Below, in pieces: positions 5,052 through 17,847 of a stretch of 64,000 bases of DNA. How positions within the stretch are numbered: position 1 is the first letter of the stretch; every line of letters begins with the position of its first letter. Under the pieces are notes generated by a model. It did no database searches and was not told where the DNA came from. It saw only the letters and a program-made list of their open reading frames with translations. Position numbers and translations under genes: made by a program. Origin of the DNA: Solirubrobacterales bacterium (GTDB lineage Bacteria; Actinomycetota; Thermoleophilia; Solirubrobacterales; 70-9); the NCBI GenBank assembly GCA_023958085.1, contig JAMLGI010000010.1:1-64000 (forward strand), in the 5' to 3' direction.

Positions 5052-6278
<1,227 letters not shown>

Positions 6279-6367
6279 ACCTGCCTCTGAAAACGACTGT
6301 GGTTCACGGTTCGGGACCAGGCTTGGTGGTCAACGGGTCCGGCTCATAGTCTGTGGTTGGGCCGGGC

Positions 6368-6416
6368 GGTGGGGATCTCGTTGCCCTTCCCCAGCCACAC
6401 CGCCGAGATCCCCACC
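6368..6416. repeat. Perfect 13-bp inverted repeat, 23-nt loop
   Basis: GGTGGGGATCTCG (6368-6380) pairs perfectly with CGAGATCCCCACC (6404-6416). Beyond one C/A mismatch three further G-C pairs extend the stem. No T-run follows on either strand, so it is not a standard intrinsic terminator, although it lies 90 bp after the acyl-CoA dehydrogenase stop. Confidence 0.75.
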
Positions 6417-6505
6417 ACCCGACCATCAACAGGGATCGTGGGTACGGGCAACTCAGTGAACGTGAACCGACCCCTCTCCGTTTGCGGCCTGTTCCACCAG
6501 CGTCG

Positions 6506-6605
6506 CTCCGGCGGGTGGCCGGGTTTTTTGCTTTTGACACCGAGCGGGAGCGAATGTCAAAAGAAAAAACGCGGACAGGACCCGCCGGCCACCAGTCTGG
6601 TCCCT
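6506..6605. repeat. Structured hairpin element, copy 1
   Basis: Inner stem: GTTTTTTGCTTTTGACA (6523-6539, one bulged G) with TGTCAAAAGAAAAAAC (6555-6570), loop CCGAGCGGGAGCGAA (6540-6554). Outer stem: GGCGGGT (6510-6516) with ACCCGCC (6580-6586). GGTGGCC (6515-6521 region) could alternatively pair with GGCCACC (6587-6593). Copy 2 lies 121 bp downstream. Confidence 0.8.
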
Positions 6606-6626
6606 CACCGTGAACCATCGGCGTTT

Positions 6627-6726
6627 CTCCGGCGGGTGGCCGGGTTTTTTGCTTTTCGCACCGAGCGGGAGCGAATGCGAAAAGAAAAAACGCGGACAGG
6701 ACCCGCCAGCCACCGGGTTGGTCCCC
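6627..6726. repeat. Structured hairpin element, copy 2, with compensatory changes
   Basis: Same 100-nt layout as copy 1, with an identical 15-nt loop. In the inner stem GA becomes CG on the 5' side (CTTTTCGCA), and the facing TC becomes CG on the 3' side (TGCGAAAAG). Both base pairs are therefore exchanged while pairing is kept. The unit ends 26 bp before the cysE start codon, so it could be transcribed as part of, or just ahead of, the cysE promoter region. Confidence 0.8.
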
Positions 6727-6739
6727 GGCCGGACCCGGA

Positions 6740-6745
6740 TAGGCT
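6740..6745 (+). promoter_or_regulatory. -10-like hexamer TAGGCT before cysE
   Basis: TAGGCT ends 7 nt before ATG 6753, consistent with a leaderless cysE transcript. It lies immediately after hairpin copy 2. Confidence 0.45.
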
Positions 6746-6752
6746 CTTCCGG

Positions 6753-7505
6753 ATGGCAGAGCAGCGCTCCCACAGAGGTTCGATCGTGGCCCGGTTCAGG
6801 GATGATGTCCGGTCCGGGATCGAGGCGGCCCGCAGCCGGGATCCGGCCGCGGCCGGGGTGTCGGCACTGGAAATTGCGCTCACCTGGCCCGGGGTGCAGG
6901 CGGTACTCGCGTATCGACTGGCCCATCGTCTCTACCTGGCGGGCATACCACTGCTGCCTTACCTGATCGCCTGGATCAGCCGGTCGGTGACCGGGGTGGA
7001 GATCCATCCGGGAGCCGAGATCGGTGATGGAATCTTCATCGACCACGGCTCCGGGGTGGTGATCGGCGAGACCACCGCGATCGGCCGCAACGTGACCCTG
7101 TACCAGGGGGTGACCCTGGGCGGGACCGGCTTCGAGTCGGGCAAACGCCACCCCACGGTAGGCGACAACGTGACGATCGGATCCGGGGCGAAGCTGCTCG
7201 GACCCCTGACCGTCGGCGCGAACGCGAAGATCGGGGCCAACACCGTGGTGGTCGAGGACGTGCCCGCGAACTCGACGGTGGTCGGCAACCCCGGACACCC
7301 GGTCCGGGTCGAAGGCCGCAGGGTGGAGGGACCGGACGTCGACTGGATCCACCTCCCCGACCCGCTCCAGGACGCGGTCAAGACCCTCTCCGCCCGAATC
7401 CGGGAGCTCGAGAAACAGGTCGCCGAGCTTTCCGGCGATCATCCGCCCGAAGGCGAGGATCCGGCCGCTGAACCCCGCCGGGGTCGCTCTCCCGCCGGCG
7501 GCTGA
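6753..7505 (+). CDS. cysE: Serine O-acetyltransferase
   Basis: 250 aa. It catalyses acetyl-CoA + L-serine to O-acetylserine, the first step of cysteine synthesis. The left-handed beta-helix repeats are obvious (GVEIHPGAEIGDGIFIDHGS; GVVIGETTAIGRNVTLYQGV), with the active-site pattern GKRHPTVGDNVTIGSGAKLL at about residues 130-149. A short N-terminal helical domain precedes them (ALEIALTWPGVQAVLAYRLAHRLY), as in the short, actinobacterial-type SATs. The C-terminus has an added amphipathic helix (LSARIRELEKQVAEL) and a Pro/Gly/Arg-rich end. No cysK is adjacent. ATG 6753 is chosen because upstream residues in the same frame belong to the repeat block. Confidence 0.92.
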   Translation: MAEQRSHRGSIVARFRDDVRSGIEAARSRDPAAAGVSALEIALTWPGVQAVLAYRLAHRLYLAGIPLLPYLIAWISRSVTGVEIHPGAEIGDGIFIDHGSGVVIGETTAIGRNVTLYQGVTLGGTGFESGKRHPTVGDNVTIGSGAKLLGPLTVGANAKIGANTVVVEDVPANSTVVGNPGHPVRVEGRRVEGPDVDWIHLPDPLQDAVKTLSARIRELEKQVAELSGDHPPEGEDPAAEPRRGRSPAGG

Positions 7506-13528: not shown

Positions 13529-14940
13529 TCGGCCTGGAGATCCACGTCCAGCTTTCGACCCGAACCAAGATGTTCTGCGGCTGCGAACTGTCCTTCGGTG
13601 ACGAACCCAACGTCCACACCTGTCCGGTCTGTCTCGCCCACCCGGGCGTGCTGCCGGTGCCGAACCGGACCGCTGTGGAGTACGCGCTGAAGATCGGCGC
13701 GGCGCTCGGCTGCGAGCTTTCGCCGGTCTCCACCTTCGACCGCAAGAACTACTTTTACCCGGACAACCCGAAGGCCTACCAGATCACCCAGGCCGCGATC
13801 CCCTATGCGATCAACGGGCGGCTGGGGGAGGTGCGGATTCACCATGCCCATCTGGAAGAAGATGCCGCCAAGACCATCCACACCGGCGGCGCCGGCCGGA
13901 TCAAGGGCTCGGACGCCTCGCTGGTCGACTTCAACCGCGGTGGCACCCCGCTGGTCGAGATCGTCACCGAACCGGATCTTGGTTCCGGGGCCCAGGTGCG
14001 GGAATGGGGCCAGCTGCTCAGGGCCACGATCAAGCAGCTCGGTGTGTCCGACGTGAACATGGAGGAAGGCTCGCTGCGATGCGACGCCAACATCTCGGTG
14101 CGACCGGCCGGCTCCACCGAGCTCGGCACCAAGACCGAACTCAAGAACATGAACTCCTTCCGTTTCATCGAGCGCGGGGTGGAGGCCGAGATCGCCCGCC
14201 AGAAGGAGCTGATCGCCGCCGGTGGCAGTGTGGTCCAGGAGACCCTGCACTTCGACCCGGCCACCGGCGAGCTGCATTCGCTCAGGTCCAAGGAGGAGGC
14301 CCATGACTATCGGTATCTGCCGGAGCCGGACCTGGCTCCGCTGGTACCGACCGCGGAAGAGATCGCCGCCGCCTTCGACTCGCTGCCGGAGCTGCCCGCC
14401 GCCAGGGCCAGCCGCTACGAGGAGATCGGTGTCCAGGAACAGGCCGCCCTGCTGCTCTCCTTCGAGACCGACTGGGCCGAGTTTTTCGAGGGTGTGCTGG
14501 AGGCTGACGAGACGATCGAGCCGCGAGTCGCCGCCAACTGGGTAACCGGCGAGTTTGCGGCCGAGTTGCGCAAGCAGGATGACCGGCCCCTGGCAGATTC
14601 CAGGGTGGCGCCACACTCGCTTGCTGCCCTGATCGGCCTGGTCGCCGCCCGGAAGATCTCGCACGGCGCCGGGAAGACGGTGCTGGAACGGATGGTGGCC
14701 GAAGGCGCCGAACCGGGCGAGGTGGTCGCCGCCGAGGGCCTCGAGCAGATCTCCGACTCCGGGGAGCTTGAGTCGATCGTCGAGCAGGCGATCGCCGACA
14801 ATCCGAAACCGGCCGAGCAGGTCCGCTCCGGTAACCAGAAGGCGATCGGCGCCCTGGTTGGCGCGGTGATGAAAGCGACCAAGGGCCGGGCCGACGGCGG
14901 TGAGGTCAACCGCCTGCTCCGCGAAAAGCTCGGACTCTAG
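13516..14940 (+). CDS. gatB: Asp-tRNA(Asn)/Glu-tRNA(Gln) amidotransferase subunit B
   Basis: 474 aa. It is the kinase/tRNA-binding subunit that phosphorylates the misacylated tRNA side chain. N-terminus [20 protein letters not shown], with the zinc-site cysteines (FCGC and HTCPVCLAHPG, residues about 18-40). Then YFYPDNPKAYQITQ, EDAAKTIHTG, DFNRGGTPLVEIVTEPD and MEEGSLRCDANISVRP follow as in the family. The C-terminal YqeY-like tail domain is complete. ATG 13516 overlaps the end of gatA by 13 nt. TAG 14938-14940 forms the outer end of a long inverted repeat. Confidence 0.95.
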   Translation: MEAVIGLEIHVQLSTRTKMFCGCELSFGDEPNVHTCPVCLAHPGVLPVPNRTAVEYALKIGAALGCELSPVSTFDRKNYFYPDNPKAYQITQAAIPYAINGRLGEVRIHHAHLEEDAAKTIHTGGAGRIKGSDASLVDFNRGGTPLVEIVTEPDLGSGAQVREWGQLLRATIKQLGVSDVNMEEGSLRCDANISVRPAGSTELGTKTELKNMNSFRFIERGVEAEIARQKELIAAGGSVVQETLHFDPATGELHSLRSKEEAHDYRYLPEPDLAPLVPTAEEIAAAFDSLPELPAARASRYEEIGVQEQAALLLSFETDWAEFFEGVLEADETIEPRVAANWVTGEFAAELRKQDDRPLADSRVAPHSLAALIGLVAARKISHGAGKTVLERMVAEGAEPGEVVAAEGLEQISDSGELESIVEQAIADNPKPAEQVRSGNQKAIGALVGAVMKATKGRADGGEVNRLLREKLGL

Positions 14941-15100
14941 ATGATTGATTCCTAACTCACCCACGTCCGGATGATCCGTCCGATTCGGCGCATTTCGGCG
15001 TCGTCGGGACTCGAACTTGCCACCGGCGAGCCCTTCGCCCTCCTTCTTGAACTGCTAGATCGGACGAACCCCCGGACGCCCTTAGGAACCAATCATCTAG
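14937..15100. repeat. Long imperfect inverted repeat joining the stop codons of two convergent genes
   Basis: Arm CTAGATGATTGATTCCTAA (14937-14955) matches the reverse complement of 15082-15100 at 18 of 19 positions. Pairing resumes further in: GTCCGG-x-CGTCCGAT on the left corresponds to a near-copy on the right arm. Each arm begins at the TAG stop of the flanking gene (gatB on +, protease on -). The 126-nt interior has no recognisable gene. It may act as a bidirectional terminator or be a small palindromic mobile element. Confidence 0.65.
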
Positions 15101-16437
15101 CGGCGCCTCTTCGGCTTCTTCTTCTGTTTCGGAAGCACCCGGATCGTCCTTTTGATCGTCTTCCGGCTGAGGTGGCCGGTTTGATCCATCGAGCGGATCC
15201 AGAGCCTGTGAGTCCCGATTGAGAGGCGCCGTACCTTGATCAGCGGCCCGGTGTAAACCGCGTCCTTGCGGTCGAGTCGCACCTTGAACCTCTGGACAGG
15301 GGTGCTGCCACTGCCCTTCGCCCGGATGTTCACCGCCCGTTTTCTCATGCTCGCGGGGGGATTCCGGACCAGGCCCACGGTCGGGCTGACCGATCCGCCA
15401 ATGTTCGGTGAGCGGTAGACCGCGATCGCTTCACTGCCCAGCTGCGGGCCGTACAGGCGTCTCTTCAGGGAAGCCTGGTCGTAGCCGTAGCTGACCACCG
15501 AGGTCAGGTAGGTCCGGTCGGCGATCCAGCCGCCGCCACTCGCCCCCTTGGTCATGTCGCAGGGCCACGCCATGTAAGGGGCTGGTGGGGGGCGCAAGTC
15601 GAAATCGAGCGAAGCCGGGATGCAGCGGATCAGATCCTCGCCGTCGTACTCCGGGCTGGGCATGACCGGATAGCCGAAGATCTCGACCGTTCGATCGGTG
15701 AGTTCGGCGTCGAACTCGATCTTCCGTGCCCCGGTCTGGTTCTGCAGCGGTGAGTCGAGAGCTACGGCGCCGAAATCGTAGCTGTGGGCTTCGGTGTCGG
15801 CGCCGCCTTTCCAGTGAGCGGTCGTGGCCAGCCAGGTCGCGTTGAAGGTGCCGAACGGTGCGTTGTCGAGATCGGACCGGGTGTATCCGGGCACGAAGAC
15901 CATGTCGGTGACCCATTTCCCGAGCGGTGGGTCGTAGACGCAGTGACCGGCGGTGATCACGACGTTGCGACCGCGGGAGTCCACCACCGTGCCGGAACAG
16001 ACGTACTCCTCACCGTCGAGTCGAAAAAAGAGGCGGCCGTGAGCGCTGTACGGGGCAGCGGAGGGGTCGGTGATGACTTCGCTGGGGGTTGGGTCGAGTT
16101 TCGGGGCAGCGCTGGCTCCGGCGCCGGAATCCACGGGCGAGGCCGGTTTCCCGAGTGGGTCGGGGGGGTCGACCGGGAACGGCTTTGCCTCAAGCATTTC
16201 CCGTGTGGTCCAGACCGGATCCTGATCGTCGGTGGTGGGGGCGGGGGCCGAGGCCGTGGCACCGGCGGGGGCTGCCGGTGCGGTTTGAAGTTTCACCTGG
16301 GAGGCCGTGGGCCCGGCCACCTTGCCGGAGGCCGCCGCTGCGGTGTCGACCCACGCCGAACCGAGCGAGAACGATGCCGCCGCGATACACCCGAGCAGTA
16401 CGGGCAGCACAGATTCGAAAATTCCCCCCTTGGCCAT
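15097..16437 (-). CDS. Exported trypsin-like serine protease
   Basis: 446 aa. N-terminal signal-like segment (VLPVLLGCIAAASFSLG, residues about 10-26), then about 90 residues of Ala/Pro/Thr-rich linker, then a chymotrypsin-fold domain. Catalytic triad is intact by motif: His in VITAGHCVYDP (about 162), Asp in SYDFGAVALD (about 220), Ser in DMTKGASGGGWI (about 299). Cys pairs surround it (YVCSGT...GHC; RCIP...WPCD). From about residue 370 a small Ig-like or cell-wall-like module follows (FKVRLDRKDAVYTGPLIKVR), ending in a strongly basic tail KQKKKPKRRR. The frame is open far upstream, but ATG 16437 gives the signal peptide. It probably cleaves proteins outside the cell or processes envelope proteins. 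Confidence 0.85.
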   Translation of the reverse strand: MAKGGIFESVLPVLLGCIAAASFSLGSAWVDTAAAASGKVAGPTASQVKLQTAPAAPAGATASAPAPTTDDQDPVWTTREMLEAKPFPVDPPDPLGKPASPVDSGAGASAAPKLDPTPSEVITDPSAAPYSAHGRLFFRLDGEEYVCSGTVVDSRGRNVVITAGHCVYDPPLGKWVTDMVFVPGYTRSDLDNAPFGTFNATWLATTAHWKGGADTEAHSYDFGAVALDSPLQNQTGARKIEFDAELTDRTVEIFGYPVMPSPEYDGEDLIRCIPASLDFDLRPPPAPYMAWPCDMTKGASGGGWIADRTYLTSVVSYGYDQASLKRRLYGPQLGSEAIAVYRSPNIGGSVSPTVGLVRNPPASMRKRAVNIRAKGSGSTPVQRFKVRLDRKDAVYTGPLIKVRRLSIGTHRLWIRSMDQTGHLSRKTIKRTIRVLPKQKKKPKRRR

Positions 16438-16511
16438 CTGGTGATCGTAACCCTTTGCGGACCGGGAAGTTCCGGCCGGAATCCGACCCCACGATGCCCG
16501 TTCACCGGATC

Positions 16512-16517
16512 TATACT
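16512..16517 (+). promoter_or_regulatory. -10 element TATACT before ndh
   Basis: TATACT ends 7 nt before ATG 16525. It is one of the closest matches to the TATAAT consensus in the window and fits a leaderless transcript. Confidence 0.6.
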
Positions 16518-16524
16518 CGGCAGC

Positions 16525-17847
16525 ATGGCTTGGAACATCGTGATCGCCGGAGGCGGCTTTGCCGGCGCTTCGGTTGCCCGTGAACTTGAGCGCCTCCTGC
16601 CTCAGCAGTCGGCCCGGCTGGCTCTGGTCAACGACGTCAACTTTCTGCTCTACACCCCGTTTCTGCCCGAAGCCGCGGCCGGAACCCTGGAACCGCGGCA
16701 CGTGGTCACCCCGCTGCGTGAAATCGTCAAGCGGACCAACCTGCGTCTGGGGGTGGTGGACAGCCACGATCCGGCGACCCGTACGGTCGAGGTCAAGTCC
16801 CATCACGGCACGGTCGACCGGCTCAGCTACGACCATCTGGTCCTCGCACCCGGATCGATCTCGCGGCTGCTGCCGATCCCCGGACTGAGCGAGTTCGGGA
16901 TCGGCTTCAAGAGCCTTTCCGACGCCACCTATCTCCGCAACCGGGTGATCGAGACCCTGGAGATGGCGAACGCAACCGAGGACACGGCGCTGCGTGACGA
17001 GCTGCTCACCTACGTGTTCGTCGGTGGCGGCTACGCCGGGCTGGAAGCGCTGGCCGAGCTTCAGGACTTTGCCGCCGATGCGATGCAGCACTACCCCCGG
17101 GCCCGGCTTCACGGGATGCGGTGGGTCCTGATCGACGCAGCCGAACGGGTGATGCCCGAGATCGACCCGGATCTGGCGCAGTACGCGGTCCAGCAGCTGC
17201 GAGGACGCGGTATCGACATCAAGCTTTCGACCACCCTGACCGAGGTGACCGCGAACTCGGCCACGATCTCGACCGGCGAGACGATGCCGACCCGGACGGT
17301 GGTCTGGACCGCCGGGGTCGCTCCCAGTCCGGGTCTGAAGAACATGGCGGTGCCGCTGGATGAAGGAGGTCGAATCCCGGTTGATTCCTCCCTGCGAGTG
17401 GAGGGGATGGACGGAGTCTGGGCGCTCGGCGATGCGGCCGCGGTTCCCGATCCGAACGGTGGGATCTGTCCACCGACCGCCCAGCATGCGGTCCGCCAGG
17501 CCAAGGTTGCCGCCGCCAACATCGCGGCCGCGGTCGGGATCGGCGAGCCCCGCATCTTCAACTACCGCAGCCAGGCCGCCTTCGTGAACCTCGGTCGTTA
17601 CAAAGCGGTCGGCAAGATCGGTGATCGCACCTTCCACGGACTGCCGGCGTGGTGGATGGCCCGCTCGTACCACATGAGCCAGATCCCCGGAGCGGGCCGC
17701 AAGATTCGGGCTGTACTCGACTGGACCGCCAGCCTGCCCTTTGCCCGTGACCTCTCGGAGGTCGGTGAGATCGGCCGTCCCGGGGATCTCGATCCGCGGC
17801 ACTACGAGCGAGGCGGCACCCACCGACCGATCTCGCCACTGGAGTAA
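16525..17847 (+). CDS. Type II NADH dehydrogenase-like FAD/NAD(P)-binding oxidoreductase (NDH-2)
   Basis: 440 aa. Two Rossmann motifs: FAD site VIAGGGFAGASVARELE (residues about 5-21) and NADH site YVFVGGGYAGLEALAEL (about 168-184). The FAD-pyrophosphate motif GVWALGDAAAVPDP (about 297-310) is followed by TAQHAVRQAKVAAANI, the usual quinone-side region of NDH-2. Such enzymes pass electrons from NADH to menaquinone at the membrane surface without pumping protons, and the window also encodes a menaquinone pathway. A C-terminal amphipathic/basic region (GRKIRAVLDWTASLPF) could mediate membrane contact. It is divergent from the protease gene, with 87 bp between. Confidence 0.88.
   Translation: MAWNIVIAGGGFAGASVARELERLLPQQSARLALVNDVNFLLYTPFLPEAAAGTLEPRHVVTPLREIVKRTNLRLGVVDSHDPATRTVEVKSHHGTVDRLSYDHLVLAPGSISRLLPIPGLSEFGIGFKSLSDATYLRNRVIETLEMANATEDTALRDELLTYVFVGGGYAGLEALAELQDFAADAMQHYPRARLHGMRWVLIDAAERVMPEIDPDLAQYAVQQLRGRGIDIKLSTTLTEVTANSATISTGETMPTRTVVWTAGVAPSPGLKNMAVPLDEGGRIPVDSSLRVEGMDGVWALGDAAAVPDPNGGICPPTAQHAVRQAKVAAANIAAAVGIGEPRIFNYRSQAAFVNLGRYKAVGKIGDRTFHGLPAWWMARSYHMSQIPGAGRKIRAVLDWTASLPFARDLSEVGEIGRPGDLDPRHYERGGTHRPISPLE

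Follow-up and report, generated by a model that had tools for sequence, protein, structure and literature searches.

The 64,000-nucleotide stretch analysed here (positions 1 to 64,000 of contig JAMLGI010000010.1 in the Solirubrobacterales assembly GCA_023958085.1; hereafter the window) carries an acyl-CoA dehydrogenase gene (5052-6278) followed by cysE (6753-7505), and the gap between these two genes is occupied by a composite repeat that includes two tandem copies of a palindromic element, P1 (Table 1). As a direct repeat the pair spans 6494-6604 and 6615-6725, with 89% identity and a start-to-start distance of 121 bp. The same hairpin is predicted for both copies on either strand, with z scores of -2.3 to -3.6 against shuffled sequences, as the preliminary description of this locus had proposed from the letters alone. 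Its observation that the tip of the hairpin carries two-sided changes around an identical loop also holds: copy 1 has the tip stem GACA/TGTC where copy 2 has CGCA/TGCG, and the 15-nt tip loop, CCGAGCGGGAGCGAA, is the same in both.

The two copies belong to a set of about 20 that are dispersed through the genome from which the window is taken (2.44 Mb in 31 contigs, 95% complete), several of them in tandem at a spacing of about 121 bp. At all sites located these copies are intergenic; the gaps that hold them are tandem, convergent or divergent, both orientations occur, and many copies closely follow a stop codon (three of them at a distance of 0-2 bp). An alignment of 17 of them contains five fully paired tip types, one replaced loop (CGGACCGTCGTCCCGGGAG) and one 4-nt loop insertion, the further tips including GGCA/TGCC, CACA/TGTG and GGTA/TACC. 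A count of pairs on 16 copies gave 12 cells altered on both sides with pairing kept, a value reached in 0 of 500 shuffles; the covariation first seen between two copies is therefore beyond chance. The preliminary description had named pair-breaking changes in further copies as the observation that would speak against a structured element, and in the copies found here pairing is kept.

Outside this genome the element is found in a different form. No copy was returned by a nucleotide search of 60 related genomes, and neither nucleotide searches nor covariance models found the element in 17 congeners. A covariance model of the copies in the window genome (R1) identified three copies in one genome that belongs to a different family of the order, plus a single one within the same family; these relatives have in common with the window copies only a frame, GCGGGTGGC...GACAGGACCCGC, and their interior is a different hairpin. 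A second covariance model (R2), built on this frame, matches in 22 of the 232 genomes of the order, where 17 candidates were scored per genome and each copy number is to be read as at least the value obtained. A relaxed exact pattern gave 106 matches, against a single match for the reversed control pattern, and these fell in 23 of the 399 genomes of the class, all within the order; the genomes of the other orders of the class gave no match to it. Among the relatives there are up to 17 exact copies per genome, and copy number differs among genomes of one genus or family. The covariance search suggested in the preliminary description thus led to about 20 copies in the window genome and to distant relatives in more than 20 genomes of the order. 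In a phylum-wide sample a stricter pattern matched a single extra genome (G583), which has no palindromic interior and was judged a chance match. A scan of viral sequences with a short frame gave 20 matches, none with an extension of the stem, and these were likewise attributed to chance. With a longer frame, one of two matches folds as a real relative. This copy lies on a phage-like contig (IMG/VR contig 3300036760_000384, 2918-3009, minus strand), in an intergenic gap just before a start codon, and its interior is well paired. Plasmid and phage databases contained no match longer than 27-29 nt.

Table 1. Features of the composite repeat and its palindromic elements in the window.
Feature	Position	Strand	Details
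Palindromic element (P1), copy 1	6508..6588	+	Outer stem 6508-6516/6580-6588
Copy 1, internal loop	GG 6517-6518 / ACAGG 6575-6579	+	
Copy 1, CCG/CGG pairing	6519-6521/6572-6574	+	
Copy 1, T6/A6 arm	6524-6529/6564-6569	+	Bulged G at 6530
Copy 1, tip	Stem 6536-6539/6555-6558; loop 6540-6554	+	Stem GACA/TGTC
Palindromic element (P1), copy 2	6629..6709	+	Anatomy as copy 1; tip CGCA/TGCG at 6657-6660/6676-6679
Copy 1 by covariance models R1 and R2	6506..6604	+	123 and 105 bits; includes small 3' hairpin GGCCACC..GGTCCC
Copy 2 by covariance models R1 and R2	6627..6725	+	120 and 101 bits
Terminator-like motif, copy 1	6507..6533	+	TCCGGCGGGTGGCCGGG TTTTTTGCTT
Terminator-like motif, copy 1	6562..6585	-	GCGGGTCCTGTCCGC GTTTTTTCTT; equivalent motif pair in copy 2
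Composite repeat	6291..6736 (approx.)	+	Inverted partial P1 end, P2 palindrome, conserved spacer, two P1 copies
Second palindrome family (P2)	6358..6429	+	Beside P1; 24 places in the window genome

Across the family the asymmetric frame is invariant, with an internal loop GG/ACAGG, and the hairpin that it encloses varies in sequence and is always paired. The left strand of the loop, GGGTGG, is present in 90 of 90 copies and the right strand, ACAGGACCC, in 82 of 90, an invariance that is partly by construction, as anchors in the frame were partly used to pick these copies. The stem columns were not used in this way, and at outer pairs 3-4 and at most of inner pairs 2-10 the sequence changes while pairing stays far above that of shuffled controls; inner pair 7 is Watson-Crick in 79 copies, of four types, compared with a shuffled mean of 30.5 and a maximum of 44. 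The alternative pairing GGTGGCC/GGCCACC, on account of which the preliminary description had thought a two-state RNA conceivable, is present in the window; however, its right-hand GGCCACC is not conserved in the relatives, whose tails at this position mostly read GGCCGAG, GGCCGGA and similar, and a function for it is unsupported.

The interiors fall into several types: type A (tip TCGCCCGCAGCYTGCGAGGACGA), type B (tip CCCGAGGAAGCTTTAGCTACCGGAGGG), the T6/A6 interior seen in the window genome, and further types. At one orthologous site, the gap between two genes that we read from their flanks as guaA and guaB, the flanks and the frame are equal in four genomes (L222, L229, L191, L232), and the interior is of type A in one of them (G304) and of type B in the other three. 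Since two interiors occupy one frame at a fixed site, the interior has been exchanged or rewritten in place. Elements are also seen at about the same codon of recG in two genomes (L231, L248), with different interiors and a different reading frame, and at about the same codon of a membrane protein in two genomes (L235, L259), again with different interiors. Sites of this kind are the evidence for regarding the element as an ancient immobile repeat, inherited vertically, the dispersal of which is long past and the copies of which change by conversion only: the guaA-guaB site is occupied in four species, and the sites in recG and in the membrane protein in two genomes each. We regard this as improbable, given that the window genome has some 20 near-identical copies where 17 congeners have none, and that copy number varies within one genus or family.

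A structured regulatory RNA, either riboswitch-like or a small RNA, under selection for its fold is also favoured by the strong covariation and by the asymmetric internal loop, which is invariant. To these can be added a count over inner pairs 1-10 of all copies, in which the plus strand has 65 G.T pairs against 17 A.C. As a sign of RNA this strand bias was rejected: in the window genome the plus strand has about equal numbers of A.C mismatches and G.U wobbles (10 and 9), and in the relatives, where wobbles are shared, the bias is uninterpretable, the excess there being partly one T.G pair common to the type B interior. The element has no tie to any gene and occurs in both orientations, many copies lie within open reading frames on either strand, and no Rfam 15 family reaches its gathering score. 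A structured RNA ahead of cysE, which the preliminary description had put forward, is not borne out by the congeners, in 14 of which a short gap, free of the element, separates cysK from the cysE that follows it; a leader specific to cysE is thereby excluded. We consider a structured regulatory RNA very improbable. Paired changes in a DNA palindrome can stem from hairpin-templated conversion and not from selection alone; the change of tip pairs from G:C to C:G with few intermediates fits conversion better than stepwise compensation, although this amounts to an argument rather than a test.

Thirty-two of the 75 copies from genomes other than that of the window lie in-frame inside predicted open reading frames. 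The local coding density is about 0.91, so genes are avoided by the element and yet are far from closed to it. The hosts include lhr, recG, ftsZ and the genes of E2, S2 and L5, and Pfam confirms S2, L5, FtsZ, L10, S17, S9, GrpE, RibD, MMPL and the pyruvate dehydrogenase (PDH) E2 protein. When the Lhr protein of one relative (L258) is aligned with PDB 5v9x, the template is continuous between residues 216 and 217 and between 326 and 328; at these points the query carries 37 and 35 additional residues, which are the two elements. In RecG the element coincides with a gap in the alignment to PDB 1gm5, and in the E2 protein of L217 it stands between the lipoyl (3-75) and E3-binding (147-182) domains. 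Read from the minus strand the inserted peptide is AGPV...(SSSSQAAGE or GDPPxxPVAKASSG)...PPAGE, and from the plus strand RAGG...TGPAR; one reading frame is used by 28 of the 30 scored copies, though other frames are often open. The core from frame to frame has a length of 1 mod 3 in 25 of 30 copies in genes, compared with 23 of 43 copies in intergenic positions (Fisher p=0.012, uncorrected for relatedness). The preliminary description had seen in the paired changes selection on structure and not on protein; pairing is indeed maintained, but the same palindromes are translated in-frame in predicted genes of the relatives. In the window subfamily the standard core measures 77 nt (2 mod 3), against 73, 76 or 88 (1 mod 3), and its odd base is the unpaired G in the T6/A6 arm. 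If the outer ends are the same, a 77-nt core would break genes, which may be why the copies in the window genome are all intergenic.

The T6/A6 arms raise the possibility that the hairpin is mainly a bidirectional intrinsic terminator, in which a GC-rich stem is followed by T6 on each strand (CCGGCGGGTGGCCGGG-TTTTTT and GCGGGTCCTGTCCGC-GTTTTTT). There are seven terminator-like sites in 6200-6900 compared with 0.7 expected, and the position of many copies of the window genome just behind stop codons, three of them at 0-2 bp, is in keeping with this role. The same T-tract stands behind a spirochaete flagellin gene, where an exact 23-mer match proved to be a plain flagellin terminator, a case of chance convergence. 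However, T6/A6 is missing from all of the relatives, in which the frame is retained, several copies in the window genome lie in divergent gaps, and copies inside the genes of relatives cannot terminate. Termination as the main role is thus doubtful.

Taken together, our data are best accounted for if the window hairpins are non-autonomous palindromic mobile DNA elements of about 75-120 bp, members of an order-wide family with the frame 5'-GCGGGT-GG-C ... G-ACAGG-ACCCGC-3'; we put the probability of this at roughly 0.8. The observations behind it are the dispersal of the copies, the frame in many genomes, the covariation, the exchangeable interiors and the in-frame residence in predicted genes of relatives. 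A REP-like DNA hairpin or the target of a transposase-like protein had been among the options of the preliminary description, and both gain support from the dispersal, the species-specific sequence and the covariation over 90 copies. On our best reading the family is new and protein-invading, works like the Rickettsia palindromic elements (RPE), and lacks the GTAG/CGTC tag of the known repetitive extragenic palindromic (REP) superfamilies. We propose that a trans-acting enzyme recognizes the frame as a hairpin of folded or cruciform DNA, and that copies would spread in this way. Conversion, either from one arm to the other or from copy to copy, may replace or re-match the interiors, giving paired changes with or without selection for the fold, while purifying selection would retain copies that lie between genes or, in-frame, within tolerant loops, linkers or tails. 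The T6/A6 arms of the window subfamily probably have a side effect as well, in that they halt transcription on either strand. A more specific proposal, which we offer tentatively, is a two-tier element in which a fixed, protein-recognized frame (GCGGGT-GG / ACAGG-ACCCGC) keeps its site and the interior is swapped for an unrelated hairpin; its enzyme would be unlike the known REP transposases, and the element would have repeatedly added peptides of 30-40 residues to core proteins across the order.

Several observations weigh against a mobile element of this kind. Y1_Tnp (PF01797) was not found in the window genome, in which positive controls matched, and a half-site search returned no gene-bearing autonomous version: all 16 exact GGACAGGACCCGC half-sites of the window genome lie within element copies, and two extra ones in relatives are coding DNA. 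The ends are fuzzy and not base-exact, and no constant direct repeat indicative of target-site duplication stands clearly above chance there; a weak one close to the ends apparently arises from the self-complementary GCGC outer helix. Evidence of an empty site is at the protein level (Lhr, RecG) and not at that of DNA from close relatives. Several species have some orthologous copies in common, which makes the distribution partly vertical and not a record of recent movement, and the copies are mutually related, so that the counts for covariation, frame and length are not independent. Finally, the gene calls come from a simple codon-score script, and for the N-terminal cases (S9, S17, GrpE) certainty is lower, as the element may precede the true start.

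Other features were noted in the remainder of the composite repeat and elsewhere. The P2 palindrome has essentially no copies in other genomes; its tip arms vary in other copies as complementary pairs (GGGATCTCG/CGAGATCCC or GGGGTTTTG/CAAAACCCC). It stands mostly just upstream of P1, and its loop takes further insertions (for example L006 and L023). At another locus (L018/L019, C12:12384-12545) about 150 nt with palindromic ends GAAGG..CCGAAAC/GTTTCGG..CCTTC have been inserted into the loop of a P1 copy, so that one hairpin encloses another. A third palindrome family, TTCTGGAGCCG..CGGCTCCAGAA, is found beside P1 in two to three copies (L014, C6 ~49370; L018, C12 ~12333). Between 5052 and 7505 the iscR-cysK-cysE order of the congeners is broken, with the acyl-CoA dehydrogenase gene upstream of cysE, which places the array at a point of rearrangement. 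Elsewhere in the window, about 1.6 kb between two genes (14940-16525) carries no called gene.

In-frame palindromes in working genes have so far been regarded for the most part as peculiar to Rickettsia, together with some intragenic REPs elsewhere. An independent, tag-less family in S2, L5, L10, FtsZ, RecG, Lhr and PDH E2 suggests that the invasion of proteins by palindromes recurs and adds new peptide segments to them. With its differing interiors in constant frames, the family makes it testable what recognizes the frame, and whether paired changes arise by selection or by hairpin-templated conversion. It also carries a warning, in that strong covariation by itself is no proof of a functional RNA. 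In the literature library searched, nothing dealt with such elements in Solirubrobacter or in Thermoleophilia.

The family can be compared with several known systems. Bidirectional intrinsic terminators share with the window subfamily a stem with T6 on both strands; T runs characterize the subfamily of this species and not the family as a whole. Miniature inverted-repeat transposable elements (MITEs) are likewise small, non-autonomous and dispersed, with imperfect terminal inverted repeats (here GCGGGT/ACCCGC), but for the present family no parent insertion sequence and no clear target-site duplication was found, and the whole element is one hairpin. REPs resemble it in being intergenic palindromes, often paired or clustered and near gene ends, with intragenic cases in several species; they are 20-40 bp in length, carry a GTAG/CGTC tag and are associated with RAYT (Y1) transposases (PMC3733652). 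In contrast, the cores described here measure about 70-95 nt, they show no enrichment of a tag (GTAG at the ends in 2 and 3 of 73 copies, against 1 and 1 in the flanks), and the window genome has no Y1_Tnp match. The family therefore falls outside the GTAG REP/RAYT definition.

We know of no transposase for the RPE. They are described, in a summary (PMC10969869) of the work of Ogata et al. (2000, 2002), as dispersed palindromes of about 100-150 bp that lie between genes and in-frame in unrelated protein genes, where they encode a shared peptide in a preferred frame, and those of R. conorii reportedly end in CGTC (PMC3733652). The present family differs apparently in sequence, and in its unrelated host lineage, in the invariant frame with its GG/ACAGG loop and in the exchangeable interiors, and CGTC is not enriched near its ends (19 and 21 of 73 copies, against 20 and 17 in the flanks). 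Its palindromes are nevertheless dispersed, intergenic and, in the relatives though not in the window genome, in-frame in unrelated genes, so that by description, a likeness of behaviour rather than of membership, the family appears to work most like the RPE.
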